This document shows, in pieces, positions 3 through 10,185 of a DNA stretch of 10,615 bases (position 1 is its first letter; every line of letters starts with the position of its first letter). The stretch is taken from the NCBI GenBank assembly GCA_000997405.1, contig LCBU01000040.1, positions 1-10,615 of the forward strand, read 5' to 3'. The translations under genes were made by a program, and so were the position numbers. The DNA is from Candidatus Woesebacteria bacterium GW2011_GWA1_41_7 (GTDB lineage Bacteria; Patescibacteriota; Microgenomatia; UBA8517). The notes under the pieces are model-generated. The model was not told the origin of the DNA and ran no database searches. It saw only the letters and a list, made by a program, of their open reading frames with translations.

Positions 3-1913
3 CCCAACAAAGAAATGGTATTGGGTTGCTACTATCTCACAACCCTGGATATTTCTTCAGATACGAAAGACGAAAAAGATTTGTACGCGTATTCTGACGA
101 GAACGAGCTTGTCTTTGCCTACCAATCCGGCAAGGTCGGGCTTCGATCCTCAGTACGGCTCCATGTGGGTGGTGCGTGGATTATCACGAGTGTCGGCCGC
201 GTTCTATTTAATGAAGCATTGCCTAGTGAACTACGGTTTTTCAATACTCCGGTAAAAGCAGCGACGATTAAATCTATTATTACTCGGGCGCTGGGCATGT
301 ATACGAAAGAAGAAGTCGTTGCTACCATTGATGCCATTAAAAATATCGGCTTTATGGGAGCGACGCTGTGCGGCGGACTTTCCGTTTCCGTCTTTGATTG
401 CGTCATGGTAGAGGAAAAACAAACGATCGTCAAAGAGGCAGAGGAGAAGGTTAAAGAGGTGGATCAAAATTACCAGCAGGGGCTGATTACTCTTGAAGAA
501 AAAAAGCGACTATCTAACGAAATTTGGATTGAAGTGACCGAGCGGATTGCCGACGTGACCTGGAGCCGCATGAAGAGAGATAATCCAGTAAAAATGATCA
601 TCGACTCCGGAGGCGCTCGCGCTTCCAAGGACCAGCTCAAACAACTCTCCGCAATCAAAGGATTAGTCGTTGATCCGCTGGGTAAAATTGTGGAGTTGCC
701 GACGAAGAGTAACTATCGTGAGGGCCTGTCGATCTTTGAATACGTAACGAGCACTCGCGGATCCAGAAAGGGTCTTACCGATACCGCTATTAAAACGGCA
801 GACGCAGGTTATCTAACCAGAAGGCTTGTTGATGTAGCCCACGATCTTATTGTGAGACTTGACGATTGTGGTACCAAGGATGGTCAGGAAATCAGAAAAG
901 ACTTAAGACCTCAATCGTTCGCATCCAGAATTTTTGGTAGGTTTGCTGCAAAAGATATTGTTGGCAAGGACGGTAAAACAGTAATCATACCCTCGGGTGA
1001 AATGATTGATCAGGAAGCCGCTAAAAAGATTGATGAGTCAGGCATAATTTCGATTTCGGTCAGATCTCCACTCACTTGTCAGGCCAGGCATGGAATTTGT
1101 GCAAAATGTTACGGTTGGGATCTTGGCACCAAGTCTTTGGTTGAAATAGGAATGCCGGTCGGAGTTGTTGCAGCCCAGTCTATCGGAGAGCCCGGAACAC
1201 AGCTTACTCTTCGTACAAAGCACGCTGCAGGTGTGGTCGGAGTTGACGTTACCCAAGGTCTCCCTCGTGTTGAAGAGCTTGTTGAGGCCAGACTTCCTAA
1301 AGTAGTTTCGGCACTTTCTGAAATTACAGGTAAAGCACGAATTTCTGAAACCGACGAAGGTTGGAAAGTTACGATAACTTCGAAAGGAACGCCAAAGGAA
1401 GAGAAAGAGTATATTATTCCTAAAACTTTAGAGCTTGCGATAGAAGACGGAGAATTGGTAGATGCCGGTCGAGCTCTCGCAAAGGGAGCGCTCGACATCA
1501 AAGATATTCTTTCTATTAAAGGCCTTAGACCGGCACAAGAGTATATTGTTAATGAAATTCAGAAAGTTTATGAATCACAGGGAATTCCGATTAACGACAA
1601 ACACGTTGAAGTCATTGTCAGAAAAATGAGTGATGAAGTCAGAATAGTTACCACAGGAGACACACCATTCCTTCCCGGTGAATTAACGTCACGTGCCAAT
1701 TTTGACGAAGAGAACGAAAAAGTATTGGCAGCAGGTGGAGAACCGGCCAGCGCACAGCAGGTTGTCTTGGGTATCACAAGACGCGCACTTTATACTGACA
1801 GCTGGCTTTCAGCCGCATCATTCGAGCAAACCACCGATGTATTAACGGAAGCCTCGCTATTGAAAAAGAATTCTCAGAAAGACCAAAACAACGGCTTTAA
1901 AAAGGTGGTTTAA
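3..1913 (+). CDS. rpoC: DNA-directed RNA polymerase subunit beta', 3' part
   Basis: This is the C-terminal 636 residues of the beta' subunit of RNA polymerase; the frame is open to the left edge, so the start lies outside. The visible protein begins at [14 protein letters not shown], the conserved segment after the active-site region. It includes the bridge-helix/trigger-loop block ([19 protein letters not shown], then [10 protein letters not shown]). The four zinc-ligand cysteines are encoded at 867, 1077, 1098 and 1107 (C...C-x6-C-x2-C). [19 protein letters not shown] and [19 protein letters not shown] follow. After [10 protein letters not shown] the usual tail (consensus like GLKENVIIGRLIP) is absent and is replaced by about 17 basic/polar residues, ending at TAA 1911-1913. 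The first dozen Arg codons (to about 760) are almost all CGN, while the next ten are all AGA/AGG. Identity is certain; integrity of the 3' end is doubtful. Confidence 0.97.
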
Positions 1914-2250
1914 TGCAAAAACAAGAAAGTTTTCAGACAGCCACTCGGCTTTCAAAAGAGGTGTGGTTTTGGCAGTTCGTACAATGACTCCCAAAAAACC
2001 AAATTCTGCACTTCGTAAGGTTGCAAGAGTTAGACTCTCCAACAAACAAGAAATTACAGCTTACATTCCCGGCGAAGGCCACGAACTTGCAGAGCATTCA
2101 ATTGTTATGATTAGGGGAGGACGTGTTAAAGATCTTCCAGGTGTAAAATACCATGTGGTTAGGGGAAGATATGACACGACCGGAGTTTCCGGCAGACAAA
2201 GAGGCAGAAGCAGATATGGTGCAAAGAAAAGTCAGGGAGGAGCTAAATAA
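1870..2250 (+). CDS. rpsL: 30S ribosomal protein S12, N-terminus unresolved
   Basis: S12 belongs to the decoding centre of the 30S subunit. The frame carries the near-invariant [50 protein letters not shown] and GRSRYGAK. S12-like sequence extends upstream through [11 protein letters not shown] and [14 protein letters not shown], back to an in-frame TGA at 1861-1863, overlapping the end of rpoC in another frame. No ATG, GTG or TTG exists between that TGA and GTG 1963, and starting at GTG 1963 would cut into the conserved core. I place the start at ATT 1870 as the least bad choice; 1963 is the first ordinary start codon. The expected leading segment (like MPTINQLVRKGR) is not encoded in any frame here. 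There are about 17 residues between TAL and KRG where E. coli has 5. Product is certain, start is not. Confidence 0.85.
2235..2242 (+). promoter_or_regulatory. Shine-Dalgarno of rpsG
   Basis: GGGAGGAG lies 7 nt before the rpsG ATG, inside the last codons of rpsL. It is the only strong Shine-Dalgarno in the window and contrasts with the other genes, which lack one. It shows that the organism has a normal anti-SD, so absence elsewhere is informative. Confidence 0.8.
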
Positions 2251-6280: not shown

Positions 6281-6589
6281 ATGGCAAGCTCAAGACTTAG
6301 AGTAAAACTCAAAAGTTACGATCATAGAGTAGTTGACGAGGCGGCAGCAAAGATAGTCGATACCGCTTTAGCTACTGGTGCAAAAATTATAGGACCGATA
6401 CCTCTTCCTACAAAAAGAAGCTTAATGGCCATCAAGGAATCTCCATTTACAGATAAAGACGCACAGGAACATTTCGAGGTTTTAGTGCATAAAAGACTGA
6501 TTGATATTATTGATCCCAGTGCACGCACAGTTGATTCTTTGGGAAATTTGGATCTTCCGGCAGGCGTAAGTATCGAAATCAAAATGTAA
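6281..6589 (+). CDS. rpsJ: 30S ribosomal protein S10
   Basis: S10 is a 30S head protein that in many bacteria also serves as the NusE antitermination factor. The product is 102 residues, the usual size, with SRLRVKLKSYDHRVVDEAA, TGAKIIGPIPLPTKRS, KRLIDIIDPSARTVDSL and the C-terminal LDLPAGVSIEIKM. There is no Shine-Dalgarno and no clear promoter in the 34-nt gap after tuf, so it most likely depends on the tuf promoters. Its stop codon lies inside a terminator-like hairpin. A shrunken second copy of both ends of the gene follows 47 nt downstream. rplC, normally the next gene, is displaced by about 3.6 kb. Confidence 0.97.
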   Translation: MASSRLRVKLKSYDHRVVDEAAAKIVDTALATGAKIIGPIPLPTKRSLMAIKESPFTDKDAQEHFEVLVHKRLIDIIDPSARTVDSLGNLDLPAGVSIEIKM

Positions 6590-6605
6590 CGCCAGTTACA
6601 TTTTT
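6581..6605 (+). terminator. Terminator-like hairpin over the rpsJ stop codon
   Basis: AAAATGTAAC (6581-6590) and GTTACATTTT (6595-6604) are perfect 10-bp inverted repeats with loop GCCA; five T residues (6601-6605) form the 3' side. The rpsJ stop TAA lies in the 5' arm. The stem is AT-rich, so termination strength is uncertain. The position, where the ribosomal gene order breaks and strand-alternating genes begin, supports a transcription end. Confidence 0.6.
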
Positions 6606-6636
6606 CGAACGCCGAGTGCTCCGTCAATAACGCCCC

Positions 6637-6717
6637 ATGAGTCGTATTCGAATAGAATTGAAAAGACGAATGGTAAGTTTGACTGGGGCCGGAGTCAGTA
6701 TTGAGATCAAGATGTAA
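6637..6717 (+). pseudogene. Miniature S10 remnant (both ends, middle deleted)
   Basis: An ATG-to-TAA frame of 26 codons begins MSRIRIELK, matching the S10 start (S-R-L-R-V-K-L-K in the intact gene), and ends AGVSIEIKM, identical to the last nine residues of the intact S10. About 75 middle residues are missing. Over the shared last ten codons including the stop, six differ from rpsJ and all six are synonymous. The N-terminal codons also differ strongly (AGT CGT for TCA AGA). It is therefore not a fresh tandem copy; it looks like a diverged second rpsJ that lost its centre, or an assembly join. No Shine-Dalgarno or promoter is seen. A functional 26-residue peptide is possible but unsupported. 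Confidence 0.65.
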
Positions 6718-6743: not shown

Positions 6744-7604
6744 CTAGCGCTCATGTTTTTTTGAAATTGTTGTAAATTTTGTTCCCTTTAGGTTTACTTT
6801 ACAGGATAAAGGACTATCCACAACGATTGAGGCTCTCCAAAAATAGTTAAAGATTTTAATTGGCAAAATAGGCTCAAAATATTTTAGATATGGCCTTAAT
6901 TTTCTTGCCAGATCCCAAACAAATTTTGGAACCTTGATTTGAAAAATTTCGGCCAGGGTTAAATTTTCTACTGCAATTGAAGTAATTTTTGCCGGTTTTT
7001 GAGCGGCGTCAAGAATAAACCTCGCTGCATCCTCGACATTAATTAAAGCCACTTTTCCGGGCCAATTTAGTCTCGAAAAAATTGAATTTTTATCGACCAA
7101 ACTTTTCAAAAAATTCAAAAAGCTGTTTTTTCGGGGGTTATCTCCCCAAACAGTCGGAAGTCTTATGATTGTTAATTTAAAACCTTTCTTTTTAGATTCT
7201 GCCAGAAGCATCTTTTCGGCTTCAAGTTTTGTTTCTCCGTATTTATTGTTTATTGCCGGTTTTGTCTTTTCGCTTATGGGATTTTTAGTATCGTGCCTAT
7301 CTGAAAAAATTGCCTGGGAACAGGTAAAGATAAAATGCGTTTTTGGTCCGATTTCGCTAAGTGCATTGAGAAGATTTCTGGTGCCCAAGTCGTTACACCT
7401 TTGATCGCGTTTACTTGTGTCGGTTGCAGCGGCCAAGTGAAAAACGAGATTTGGGTTTTTCGGAACCTTTCCAAGACCCCTTCCGGAAACTAAGTCATGT
7501 CTTTTTTTGTCCAGAATAAATACGTCTTTTTTAGGGTATTCTTTCTTGATTAGTGGTAAAAGTTTCTTTCCTATAAAACCCGACGCCCCTGTTATAAGTA
7601 TCAT
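6744..7604 (-). CDS. NAD-dependent epimerase/dehydratase, extended SDR family
   Basis: A 286-residue extended short-chain dehydrogenase/reductase, the group that includes nucleotide-sugar epimerases, dehydratases and dTDP-4-dehydrorhamnose reductases. It begins MILITGASGFIG, with the NAD(P)-binding GxxGxxG at residues 6-12. An acidic residue (D32) at the end of the second strand favours NAD. HLAAATD (57-62), a catalytic Ser region FTCSQ (about 96) and YxxxK (Y122, K126) follow, then RLPTVWGD. The C-terminal substrate part is short and basic, so the sugar cannot be named. It is divergent from the membrane gene at 7630, with only 25 nt between starts and a shared -10 palindrome. No Shine-Dalgarno precedes the ATG. 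The context of two membrane glycosyltransferase-like genes suggests a nucleotide-sugar step in surface-glycan synthesis. Confidence 0.88.
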   Translation of the reverse strand: MILITGASGFIGKKLLPLIKKEYPKKDVFILDKKRHDLVSGRGLGKVPKNPNLVFHLAAATDTSKRDQRCNDLGTRNLLNALSEIGPKTHFIFTCSQAIFSDRHDTKNPISEKTKPAINNKYGETKLEAEKMLLAESKKKGFKLTIIRLPTVWGDNPRKNSFLNFLKSLVDKNSIFSRLNWPGKVALINVEDAARFILDAAQKPAKITSIAVENLTLAEIFQIKVPKFVWDLARKLRPYLKYFEPILPIKIFNYFWRASIVVDSPLSCKVNLKGTKFTTISKKHER

Positions 7605-7629: not shown

Positions 7630-8619
7630 ATGCGTGAAAAAATAACGAAACATAAATGGTTTTTGTTGAGTCTTATTTTGGCCGTATTATTGGCATTTTA
7701 TAGATTTAACCAAGGAGTCATCCAGCAAGATAATTACATGGAGTATGCCAGACACTTGCCTTTTGAGGTGGGTAAAATCTCCTTTTATGATTCCAGACTT
7801 TTGCCCGGGCTACCAATTTTGATTTATTTGTTACATTTTTTAACAGGGGATATCTATGTGGCCGGTTACCTTTTAATGTTCATTTTTTTTGGTGGCTCAT
7901 ATTTATTGTTATACAAATTAACCCACTCACCTTTAAGTTTCGTGCCGCTTATTTTTCCCCCGATACTCCTAAACCTGGCTTCATTAATCGATACGGAATA
8001 TCCTTTTATATTTCTAATAGTTTTATCTTACTTTTTAACTAAGAGTAAGAATTTTAAATGGGCGTTTTTAATAATAGGCATATCCGTATGGTTCAGACTG
8101 GCCGGTTTAGCAGTTCTTGCCGGAGTTTTTATTTATATGGCTTTGAAGAAAAAGTTTGGTAAATTTTTATTAAATTTACCCTATTTTGTGATGCCGGTAT
8201 TGTTACTTACGCTTTACAATATTTATTTTTACGGTTCCGGCAACCCCTTCTACCAGCTTTTTACTTATCAAGCACTACATCCGGAAAGAATCAGTATGGG
8301 GATTGTCCAGTTGGGACAAGATGTGTTAAGAGCGTTCAGGTGGCAGTGGTACAGAATTCTTGTTTCAGGCATTTTTTATATTTTTGTGTATTTCTATCTC
8401 TATCTCAAATCATTTAAAAATAAAACTTTGGAATTTTGGATAATAAGTTCTATATATTTATTCACATTAACCGTTAACCTGGTTCCTTTCTTGGAGAATT
8501 TGGGAAGATATTTGGCTCCGACAATACCGCTTTTTTGGCTAATGTTTCACTCAAAATTAAAAAGTTCAAATATTTTATACCTGGCGCTTCCGATATCTGT
8601 TTTAGCTGTATTTTTGTGA
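7630..8619 (+). CDS. Polytopic membrane protein, GT-C glycosyltransferase-like
   Basis: A 329-residue protein of roughly 9-11 hydrophobic segments (first at about 11-27, last at about 313-329). The first extracytoplasmic loop holds an acidic motif, QQDNYMEYARHLP (D34), followed by FYDSRLLPGLP. An acidic residue just after the first membrane segment is the hallmark of GT-C enzymes such as PMT/ArnT-like transferases, which use polyprenyl-phosphate sugars as donors. The family assignment rests on architecture, not on a diagnostic motif. The protein is short for GT-C enzymes and stops within or right after its last membrane segment, so 3' truncation is possible. Its last 73 bases overlap the converging gene. 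ATG 7630 is supported by the TATAAT 8 nt upstream. The stop is TGA. Confidence 0.7.
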   Translation: MREKITKHKWFLLSLILAVLLAFYRFNQGVIQQDNYMEYARHLPFEVGKISFYDSRLLPGLPILIYLLHFLTGDIYVAGYLLMFIFFGGSYLLLYKLTHSPLSFVPLIFPPILLNLASLIDTEYPFIFLIVLSYFLTKSKNFKWAFLIIGISVWFRLAGLAVLAGVFIYMALKKKFGKFLLNLPYFVMPVLLLTLYNIYFYGSGNPFYQLFTYQALHPERISMGIVQLGQDVLRAFRWQWYRILVSGIFYIFVYFYLYLKSFKNKTLEFWIISSIYLFTLTVNLVPFLENLGRYLAPTIPLFWLMFHSKLKSSNILYLALPISVLAVFL

Positions 8620-9725
8620 GTACTTACCAAAAAATAAATATTCATTCCCCACATGATCAGCGTTCCATAAAATTGATTTGAAAGAAGAATGGTGGGGTAA
8701 AGATCCGGTTTTTTGAAGTTCCAACTGACCAGGAAATAGGCAATAGTAAGGAGTCCCAGAAGTATAATTCTTTTTGATTTAATGACTCGGAAAAATAAAA
8801 CTATAGAAGGGAAAATGAGCCAGACAAAGTGATGTTGCCAGGAAGTAGTATCAAATAAAAGCAAGGTAATAATGAAAAGCGAAAGAACCAAATCTTGACC
8901 TTTCTTTTTTATTGCCATAATTACAGGCAAAACAATGAGTGCAATTGTTGTAACCAAATTAAGATAAATTCTTGCATTAATGTTACTTATGAATCTTGAA
9001 ATGAAACTGACAACCCCCTGGTTGACATAAGCCTCACGGCCTGCAAAATTTGAAAGAGGGACTATTCCGGTTTCAAACCACGAAATCCAGATATCCAAAG
9101 GCCAAAATATTAAAGTAGAAACAGCCAAAAGAGTGACAAGAAGCACGCTTGCCAGAACGGTTTTCCAGGATTTTTTTAAGACAAAAAACAAAAGGAAGAA
9201 TACAAAAATCGGTTTTAGGGCAATTGCGATACTTAAAGATACACCCGCCCAAAGAAAATTATTTTTTCTGTCCAGGTAGACCCCCAGAAGCAATAGAAAA
9301 AGAACAATCGGGTTAATCTGCCCCATTCCCAGAGAAAACTTTGTCGGAAAAGACATTAAGGTTAGTCCCAAAAAAAGGAGGAAATAATGCCAGGCGGCCT
9401 TTTTTGCAGTTAGCTTTAAAGACAAAAAAACGGATCCCAAAATTGAAGCGAAGGAAATAAAAGTAAAAACGGCCAGGGCTTTTTGATAAGAAAGAAAACC
9501 CAGGGGTAAATAAAATATCTCGCTTATCGGAGGATAAGCGTTGGGGGTGTAAATTGTTGGGTTTGTGTATGGATTTTTGCCCACCAGCATGTCTTTCGCA
9601 GAAATCCACAACACTCCGAAGTCGGGGGCGGACGTAGATATAATTCTATAAAGATTTCCTAAAATCAGGGTAAAGCAGGTCATAAAAAAAGCCAAAACCA
9701 CGATTTTTTTAAAGGTTTTTGTCAC
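8547..9725 (-). CDS. GT87/DUF2029 family membrane glycosyltransferase
   Basis: A 392-residue polytopic membrane protein with features of the GT87 (DUF2029, PimE-like) mannosyltransferase family, which transfers sugar from polyprenyl-phosphate-sugar on the outer face of the membrane. After a first membrane segment (about 8-25) comes DFGVLWISAKDMLVGKNPY, with the likely catalytic Asp at D35. NAYPPISEIFYLPLGFLS, the conserved LGMGQINPIVLFLLLLG (about 132-148), ALKP (169-172), NQGVVSF (235-241) and a WQHHFVWL block (296-303) follow. The start is GTG at 9725, with a TTGGCA/TATGTT promoter candidate upstream. The last 22 residues are hydrophilic and are encoded opposite the 3' end of the membrane gene at 7630, a 73-bp tail-to-tail overlap. 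Sugar and acceptor are unknown. Confidence 0.85.
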   Translation of the reverse strand: MTKTFKKIVVLAFFMTCFTLILGNLYRIISTSAPDFGVLWISAKDMLVGKNPYTNPTIYTPNAYPPISEIFYLPLGFLSYQKALAVFTFISFASILGSVFLSLKLTAKKAAWHYFLLFLGLTLMSFPTKFSLGMGQINPIVLFLLLLGVYLDRKNNFLWAGVSLSIAIALKPIFVFFLLFFVLKKSWKTVLASVLLVTLLAVSTLIFWPLDIWISWFETGIVPLSNFAGREAYVNQGVVSFISRFISNINARIYLNLVTTIALIVLPVIMAIKKKGQDLVLSLFIITLLLFDTTSWQHHFVWLIFPSIVLFFRVIKSKRIILLGLLTIAYFLVSWNFKKPDLYPTILLSNQFYGTLIMWGMNIYFLVSTHKNTAKTDIGSARYKIFELFNFE

Positions 9726-9787: not shown

Positions 9788-10012
9788 ATGGGGAAGGAAC
9801 TGCCTAGTGATGCTGCGGGATATGTAGAAAAACGTTTGTCTTGGGAAAAATATTTAGGCTGTGACAGCGAGGTTGCCATTGAGGCGTATAAGATCTATCT
9901 AAATAGGGCTGCAAAGGGGAAAGAAGGGACAGAGGAACAGGATTGGATTAGGGCTGAGAGCATTGTAAGAAACAGGTTTGCGAGGGAGCTTATTCATAAA
10001 TTGACCACCTAG
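9788..10012 (+). CDS. Small DUF2934-like protein
   Basis: A 74-residue soluble, charged protein. The segment SEVAIEAYKIYLNRAA, a short linker and EEQDWIRAESIVRNRF resemble the DUF2934 pattern (an A-Y-x-x-Y helix, then E-x-D-W-x-x-A-E). That family has no known biochemical role. A longer frame runs back to GTG 9719, but ATG 9788 is preferred: upstream residues are hydrophobic and poor in homology, and TAATAT at 9775-9780 could serve as a -10 giving a near-leaderless start. The stop TAG is 1 nt from the -35 of the rplC promoter. Moderate confidence that it is a real gene; low confidence in function. Confidence 0.65.
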   Translation: MGKELPSDAAGYVEKRLSWEKYLGCDSEVAIEAYKIYLNRAAKGKEGTEEQDWIRAESIVRNRFARELIHKLTT

Positions 10013-10013
10013 C

Positions 10014-10042
10014 TTGCTAAGGATTTTGACTTCTGGTATAAT
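10014..10042 (+). promoter_or_regulatory. Promoter of the rplC (L3) transcription unit
   Basis: TTGCTA (10014-10019), 17-nt spacer, exact TATAAT (10037-10042) with a TG one base upstream (extended -10, TGGTATAAT). Transcription should start near 10049, giving a leader of about 137 nt before rplC. It lets the remaining S10-type ribosomal genes be expressed despite the interruption upstream. Confidence 0.75.
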
Positions 10043-10048
10043 TCCCCT

Positions 10049-10185
10049 CATAACAATATGGTGGTTATGATTACAGTCAGCCACACAGACAGTCTTCTCT
10101 AGGATGCTTCGTAGCGCCTTAAGAAGGCGCCTTTTGTTTAATGTCCACCCGGCTTTTTATAGGTCGTGTAGGATTCACAACAAGC
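10049..10185 (+). promoter_or_regulatory. rplC leader RNA, possible attenuator or short ncRNA
   Basis: The leader between the promoter and rplC contains ATG 10058 opening a 14-codon frame (MVVMITVSHTDSLL, TAG 10100-10102), then a strong hairpin with T-rich tail (10114-10140), then about 45 nt to the rplC ATG. If the hairpin terminates, a free RNA of about 90 nt results; if it is read through, it forms an attenuator. I recognise no known riboswitch, tRNA or SRP RNA in it. r-protein operons often carry autoregulatory leaders; the ligand here is unknown. Confidence 0.45.
10114..10140 (+). terminator. Terminator-like hairpin within the rplC leader
   Basis: GCGCCTT (10114-10120) and AAGGCGC (10124-10130) form a perfect GC-rich 7-bp stem with a 3-nt loop (AAG), followed by CTTTTGTTTA. 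It has the form of an intrinsic terminator and lies downstream of the rplC promoter, so it must be passed for L3 to be made. Confidence 0.65.

Follow-up and report, generated by a model that had tools for sequence, protein, structure and literature searches.

What is encoded by the short open reading frame (ORF) behind the rpsJ gene of Candidatus Woesebacteria bacterium GW2011_GWA1_41_7? The frame (6637..6717, plus strand) lies in a window of 10,615 nucleotides (nt), the entire contig C40 (LCBU01000040.1) of a 548-kb draft genome that consists of 54 contigs and is 84% complete. It follows an intact rpsJ of 102 codons (6281..6589, plus strand; NCBIfam PRK00596, E = 1.8e-38), which encodes ribosomal protein S10, and it translates, as the initial annotation stated, into MSRIRIELKRRMVSLTGAGVSIEIKM and a stop (26 codons). 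That annotation described a miniature S10, with an S10-like start (MSRIRIELK) joined to the exact S10 C-terminus. The supposed miniature is no gene: its first half belongs to a hairpin, and its second half is a spare S10 gene end. We consider it likely, with a probability of roughly 80%, that a small structured mobile element has left its footprint here, at the rpsJ 3' end.

The last nine codons and the stop of rpsJ (tail 1, 6560..6589, plus strand) recur as a direct repeat 128 nt downstream (tail 2, 6688..6717, plus strand), with 24 of 30 nt identical (80%) and 98 bp between the two. Six of the nine sense codons differ, all of them synonymously, and the stop is identical, in agreement with what had been noted at first. 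A simple local or target-site duplication was rejected on the basis of these differences. The window copy is the sole full-length rpsJ match in a search of the genome, and the S10-tail pattern, when at most one mismatch is allowed, has two matches there. Between random rpsJ tails of the family, 5.3 ± 1.5 of nine codons differ, and the two rpsJ tails found in genome G010, which belongs to the same family, differ at four sense codons. Thus, the tail pairs of both the window and G010 lie within the ordinary divergence between tails and behave like two different alleles.

Between the tails lie a spacer (6590..6617, plus strand) and a 71-nt hairpin element core (6618..6688, plus strand), which scores 75.4 bits (E = 6.5e-21) with model R2, a model that includes the window copy itself. 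The spacer has TTTTC..ACGCCGA.T in common with the G010 copy and differs at the other gene-end copies read, and a 10-bp perfect inverted repeat (AAAATGTAAC / GTTACATTTT; 6581..6604) extends across the rpsJ stop codon. The inter-tail spacers of the window and G010 are homologous, as judged by both global alignment (11.5 versus a shuffled mean of -13.2; 0/5000) and local alignment (17.0 versus 8.1 shuffled; 2/5000). Their common fold contains 31 pairs, of which nine are changed on both sides and none is broken, and the consensus fold reaches -28.5 kcal/mol, compared with -7.2 ± 2.8 in column shuffles (0/1000 as stable). For 28 copies that were chosen by a covariance model of these two sequences, but aligned by sequence, 13 of 14 core pairs exhibit changes on both sides, 96.9% of cells are paired (68.4% when shuffled, 25-39% when slid; 0/500 shuffles), and the covariation score is 0.779, compared with 0.275 in shuffles (0/500). 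A further 32 matches, whose alignment was fitted to the model, are 99.6% paired. By eye, CGAATAG is conserved at the apex of the core, the internal loop is GA/GA, and the base is rich in GC. It is an imperfect hairpin of ~71 nt that is maintained by compensatory changes.

At E ≤ 0.01, the core model has matches in 155 of 373 class genomes; since at most 13 candidates were scored per genome, copy numbers per genome are lower bounds. Two matches were obtained in the window's own genome, of which the one in the window was examined. With the model built from the window and G010, strong matches elsewhere in the family genomes are without S10 tails, and weak matches are mostly rpsJ ends. The hairpin is therefore a short, non-coding, imperfect palindrome that is dispersed and multi-copy, as are palindromic elements and miniature inverted-repeat transposable elements (MITEs). 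Rfam 15 reports no family at the window hairpin up to E = 5, and none at gathering cut-offs for copies in 40 other loci (a scan that covered neither L156 nor L159-L167). Membership in a known RNA family was rejected, the one microRNA match, at the G010 copy (E = 2.9), being far below its cut-off, as was an origin from phages, viral contigs or plasmids, for which blastn and exact patterns gave no match. A full-text literature search found no description of the hairpin element, which is weak evidence of absence. Two copies appear by eye to lie inside other structured RNAs: one in L129 (3034-3107, genome G060) inside an RNase P RNA gene and another inside a cobalamin riboswitch; the Rfam scan reported neither family there.

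Flanks were compared for 57 copies: family f1 contributed 28, and the 30 best class loci contributed 29, with L156 (the same copy as one in L118) and four weak matches left out. In eight of these, the window and seven others, the hairpin lies between direct repeats that contain the 3' end of one gene, an arrangement seen in 2 of 2228 mispaired-flank controls; in a ninth flagged copy, L118, the repeat is non-coding. The genes are rpsJ, gyrB and rpsI (two copies each), nusG, and a SEC-C-like protein, which we take to be SecA. Pfam and NCBIfam support the gyrB, nusG and rpsI identities, while the SEC-C-like protein has no Pfam family match and only two NCBIfam matches far below cut-off. The second tail starts within 2 nt of the hairpin 3' end in six of the eight cases, and the flank can be read, as a reading and not as a test, as starting there in the remaining two. 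The eight tail pairs differ at 55 codons, 51 of them synonymous (46 sense, 5 stop) and 4 non-synonymous, a ratio that is biased upward because the pairs were found by amino-acid match. Since gene-end pairs differ synonymously, they are not simple target-site duplications. In gapped DNA alignments, 11 of the 57 copies have flanking repeats that score higher than any of 1684 mispaired controls; two of the 11 carry the same repeat in sister genomes.

Two further features of the flanks were observed. In L128, L149, L160, L162 and L163, GTCAAG is found directly behind the hairpin and again 16-47 nt before it, and is possibly a preferred target motif of hairpin copies. The copy in L138 is flanked by a 29-nt repeat (26/29), one frame of which reads AREYLLCKCRS on both sides with three synonymous differences; this is perhaps a further gene end.

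The double gene ends also bear on the suggestion in the initial annotation that two strains were joined during assembly. The source genome is indeed a draft in many contigs, but in G010, independently, a homologous hairpin separates two rpsJ tails at a spacing of 129 nt (128 in the window), and the same layout of hairpin and tail is present at gyrB, nusG and rpsI in other genomes. An assembly artefact is therefore extremely unlikely.

How, then, does a frame come to resemble both ends of S10? The part of the window from 6637 to 6687 is the hairpin apex and 3' arm, and in 33 of the 57 copies (the window's included) the same frame yields an R-[IV]-[RQ]-[IT]-[EVD] peptide. At another locus, the copy in L128 encodes exactly SRIRIELKRRM, and that in L138 SRIRIELKRRK. 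Because hairpin copies elsewhere encode a like peptide, the resemblance to an S10 start is due to chance, and the reported mini-ORF is a chance fusion of a hairpin part and tail 2. In G010, which carries the closest copy at rpsJ, the second-tail frame contains a stop with no ATG after it, and in sister genome G001 the frame is absent, so that it is not kept in relatives. A second, degenerate rpsJ with a deleted middle, perhaps retained as a peptide in competition with S10/NusE, would account for the true S10 end and for the likeness of MSRIRIELK to an S10 start, but with a first half made of dispersed hairpin sequence, and a frame broken in G010, we regard this as highly improbable. What stands of the original proposal is the C-terminus, which is a true second rpsJ tail; the S10 start does not. 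Likewise, the proposed origin from a diverged, once-selected S10, and not from a recent copy of the present rpsJ end, holds for the tail and fails for the N-terminal half. The sequence data, considered alone, gave no evidence for a peptide product, and the 26-codon frame is probably a by-product that need not be translated.

Two tails that behave like alleles raise the question of which one is native. Tail 2 differs from the relatives G004, G032 and G001 at 3, 3 and 4 of nine codons, whereas tail 1 differs at 8, 8 and 6, respectively, and is identical over nine codons to G009, a genome that carries hairpin copies elsewhere. In comparison with G001, the first 180 nt of rpsJ match at 26-30 of 30 nt per block and the last 120 nt at 21-25; in comparison with G009, the last 30-nt block matches at 28/30 and earlier blocks at 19-26. 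With a G001-like start and a G009-like end, rpsJ therefore looks mosaic. In sister G001 (87% complete), neither the hairpin nor a second tail was found. These comparisons suggest that in the window the left tail is a foreign allele and the right tail the displaced native end. Separately, the first 60 nt of rpsJ (6281-6340) match G001 at 59/60 and G004 at 56/60, while blocks of the adjoining tuf match these two genomes at 68-88%; this could reflect either recent exchange or an unusually constrained mRNA start.

These features would be explained if DNA that brought in both a foreign rpsJ end and the hairpin integrated within the last codons of the resident rpsJ. The foreign tail would then complete rpsJ, so that the gene stays whole, and the old native tail would be left downstream without function; the two tails would be alleles that had each been under selection in different genomes. 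Movement might occur through an integrase acting at gene ends, through single-strand hairpin integration, or through gene-anchored recombination that ends at the hairpin. Our preferred scenario is that the element integrates at gene ends and then spreads when relatives exchange DNA by homologous recombination. The mobility, the order of events and the native status of tail 2 are our interpretation of the comparisons above.

Small palindromic and MITE-like repeats are mobilised in trans by a transposase with which they share their ends, whereas integrative elements in gene 3' ends contain an integrase gene; the 98 bp between the window's tails contain none. An all-versus-all comparison of 301 distinct ORFs near the copies gave 18 recurrent groups, ten representatives of which were scanned: RadA-like, S1, response regulator, Rho, transpeptidase, ABC, HU, DnaX-like, GIY-YIG and BacA (names partly by eye). 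Groups outside that scan include elongation factors, the S10 of two rpsJ loci and gyrB. There was no transposase among the ten representatives near the copies, and genes elsewhere were not searched. The GIY-YIG group consists of related small ORFs near the copies in L134 and L165 (2020 and 108 nt away, respectively), of which the L134 ORF carries a GIY-YIG nuclease domain; the pairing may be due to chance.

A further interpretation would treat the hairpin and the gene end behind it as one unit, an RNA scaffold with a 3' guide, forming a self-protecting homing element without its own protein. In such a system, empty copies of the gene end would be cleaved by a nuclease acting in trans and directed by the guide, and the hairpin would spread through repair from the occupied copy. 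The left tail, being synonymously different, would preserve an intact essential gene and at the same time shield it from the cut. We consider this very unlikely, as no nuclease is linked to the hairpin and the tail differences are no larger than those between ordinary alleles. As the differences are those of ordinary alleles, deliberate recoding of the left tail for protection is needless and was rejected.

Several observations weigh against a mobile element. Single copies fold unremarkably (window z = -1.34, with 18/200 shuffles as good; G010 z = -0.83, with 43/200), the count of 13 pairs changed on both sides was matched by 25/500 shuffles, and the further pair types in the 32 additional matches were equalled by 311/500. 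The models used to find the copies already include the structure, the amino-acid search used to find the tail pairs favours synonymous differences, and the genomes are mostly drafts from which the 57 copies form a non-random sample. In G010, comparison does not separate a native from a foreign tail. No mover was found, the scanned recurrent ORF families near copies being housekeeping-like except for the GIY-YIG pair. Duplication of the rpsJ tail also occurs without the hairpin, in seven genomes. Finally, 46 of the 57 copies lack a flanking repeat above the control maximum. This last result, the RNA-like covariation, and the position of several copies beside rRNA genes, tRNAs and conserved genes are consistent with a host-encoded RNA element, such as an mRNA 3' end or processing signal, around which tails were duplicated by recombination. 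Such an origin is nevertheless rather improbable given the patchy presence of the hairpin, which was not found even in sister G001, and the flanking repeats of the other 11 copies; the copy that by eye interrupts RNase P RNA, although without Rfam confirmation, also speaks against it.

The hairpin-free duplications are most relevant to homology-facilitated illegitimate recombination alone, in which foreign DNA with an rpsJ end would recombine within rpsJ and be joined near the old end, and the hairpin would be the donor's downstream sequence. In addition to the window, a pattern search of 50 family genomes detected extra tails in G010 and, at a spacing of 1117 nt, in G067. When the sequence behind rpsJ was read in 47 of these genomes (three were left out of this count), five extra tail-plus-stop matches with at least 6/9 residues emerged, in G000, G007, G010 and G067 (two), whereas 150 permuted tails gave 0.03 on average and never more than 3. 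Only one other full second tail occurs in the 47 genomes, in G067, where a long stretch of the rpsJ end is repeated; a second match of the double-tail scan, in L064, was rejected as a chance match inside its own rpsJ. Among 839 ORF tails from the same loci, a scan in which G010 does not count (its rpsJ start is cut), repeats at 7/9 residues or more come from rpsJ alone. Of the five pairs at 6/9, one is a decayed third tail of G067 and the rest are mostly lysine-rich. In the class sample, the Asp-type tail pattern is present in 124 of 373 genomes, five of which carry neighbouring extra tails (G143, G184, G264, G282 and G374, the last judged from translations only); second matches in G312 and G155 were rejected because they are located in other genes. 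The hairpin model detected no hairpin in these five genomes, in G007 or in G067. An ORF lies between the tails in five of the seven (G007, G067, G184, G264 and G282), while the duplication is a 77-bp tandem repeat in G143 and includes a short spacer in G374.

In G067 (L060, 4371-5809), serial insertions are observed behind rpsJ: a 270-amino-acid ORF and then a minus-strand pair that by eye resembles a RelBE-type toxin-antitoxin system. An S10 tail stands behind each insertion, and the farther tail is more decayed. Tail duplications in several genomes thus mark rpsJ ends as recurrent insertion points. Together with the mosaic rpsJ and the divergent tuf blocks beside it, they make recombination alone a possible explanation, if a somewhat unlikely one. 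Against it stand the start of tail 2 within 2 nt of the hairpin 3' end in most gene-end cases and a hairpin that is both dispersed and structurally conserved, features that agree better with a mobile hairpin.

The remainder of the window contains rpoC, rpsL, rpsG, fusA, tuf and rpsJ in this order (names by eye, rpsJ excepted), followed by a NAD-dependent epimerase family gene (6744..7604, minus strand), a putative membrane glycosyltransferase (7630..8619, plus strand; family match weak, below cut-off) and a GT87-type glycosyltransferase, the longest ORF (8547..9725, minus strand). In G004 the same pair of epimerase and adjoining glycosyltransferase stands directly behind rpsJ with one tail. 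The window's extra 128 bp therefore sits between rpsJ and its G004 neighbour. The possibility that the duplication marks the boundary of an epimerase cassette was rejected, since a cassette that follows a single tail in G004 cannot alone account for it. In G029 a homologue of the GT87-type gene is directly 3' of rpsJ, and in sister G001 rpsJ is followed by a homologue of a small ORF (9788-10012 in the window) and then by rplC, with no second tail.

Several irregularities were also observed at these loci. The annotated start of rpsL (S12) lacks an N-terminus (window 1880-1990); the frame upstream of its GTG resembles the S12 of G004 and overlaps the rpoC end, and the MPTINQL start of G004 is missing. 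Sequence between rpoC and rpsL has therefore apparently been lost or rearranged. The only rpsJ found in G004 (L049, 2262-2559) lacks 8 nt that its kin have, so that the frame is broken; the gap is either an assembly error or real. Before rplC, the region 10030-10135 contains a promoter-like TATAAT, a GTGGTTATG...AGCCAC hairpin and a terminator-like GC hairpin, with counterparts by eye in G001 and G004, and is possibly a conserved leader of the L3 operon.

If the hairpin is indeed mobile, a structured element without an Rfam 15 match in the copies tested is present in 155 of 373 genomes of a large, mostly uncultivated group, and can occupy the ends of essential genes without breaking them. Tail pairs, one foreign and one native, would then record gene exchange between genera. 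Copies of this kind can also pass for small genes, as in the window.

Comparison with known systems reveals partial likenesses. Integron attC sites are structured hairpins that are recognised by shape and carry the core sites RYYYAAC/GTTRRRY. The serial insertions of G067, separated by tails, recall integron cassettes but are without the window's hairpin; attC core sites were not seen by eye at the hairpin copies, and the loci read form no cassette arrays. One study describes Rickettsia palindromic elements, ERIC, RUP and Correia/NEMIS as non-autonomous repeats of less than 200 bp with long stem-loop transcripts, which occur between and inside genes and in RNA genes, most having terminal inverted repeats and a 5'-TA-3' motif (PMC2229807). 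The likeness lies in a short, non-autonomous, dispersed stem-loop. In contrast, here the hairpin alone is conserved and the left spacer varies, and in 8 of 57 copies the hairpin is flanked by repeats of a gene 3' end, at least 27 nt long and differing mainly synonymously. Streptococcal integrative and conjugative elements (ICEs) with tyrosine integrases are described in another study at the 3' ends of rplL, rpsI, guaA and lysS, with repeats of 12-54 bp (PMC4701971). On that description, rpsI is a target in common, but in the present case the inserted sequence is only ~100 bp long and has no integrase, several target genes host a single family, and synonymous differences between the two gene ends are numerous. 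The spare gene ends beside the hairpin, at rpsJ and at other essential genes, resemble what an undescribed mobile element would leave behind.
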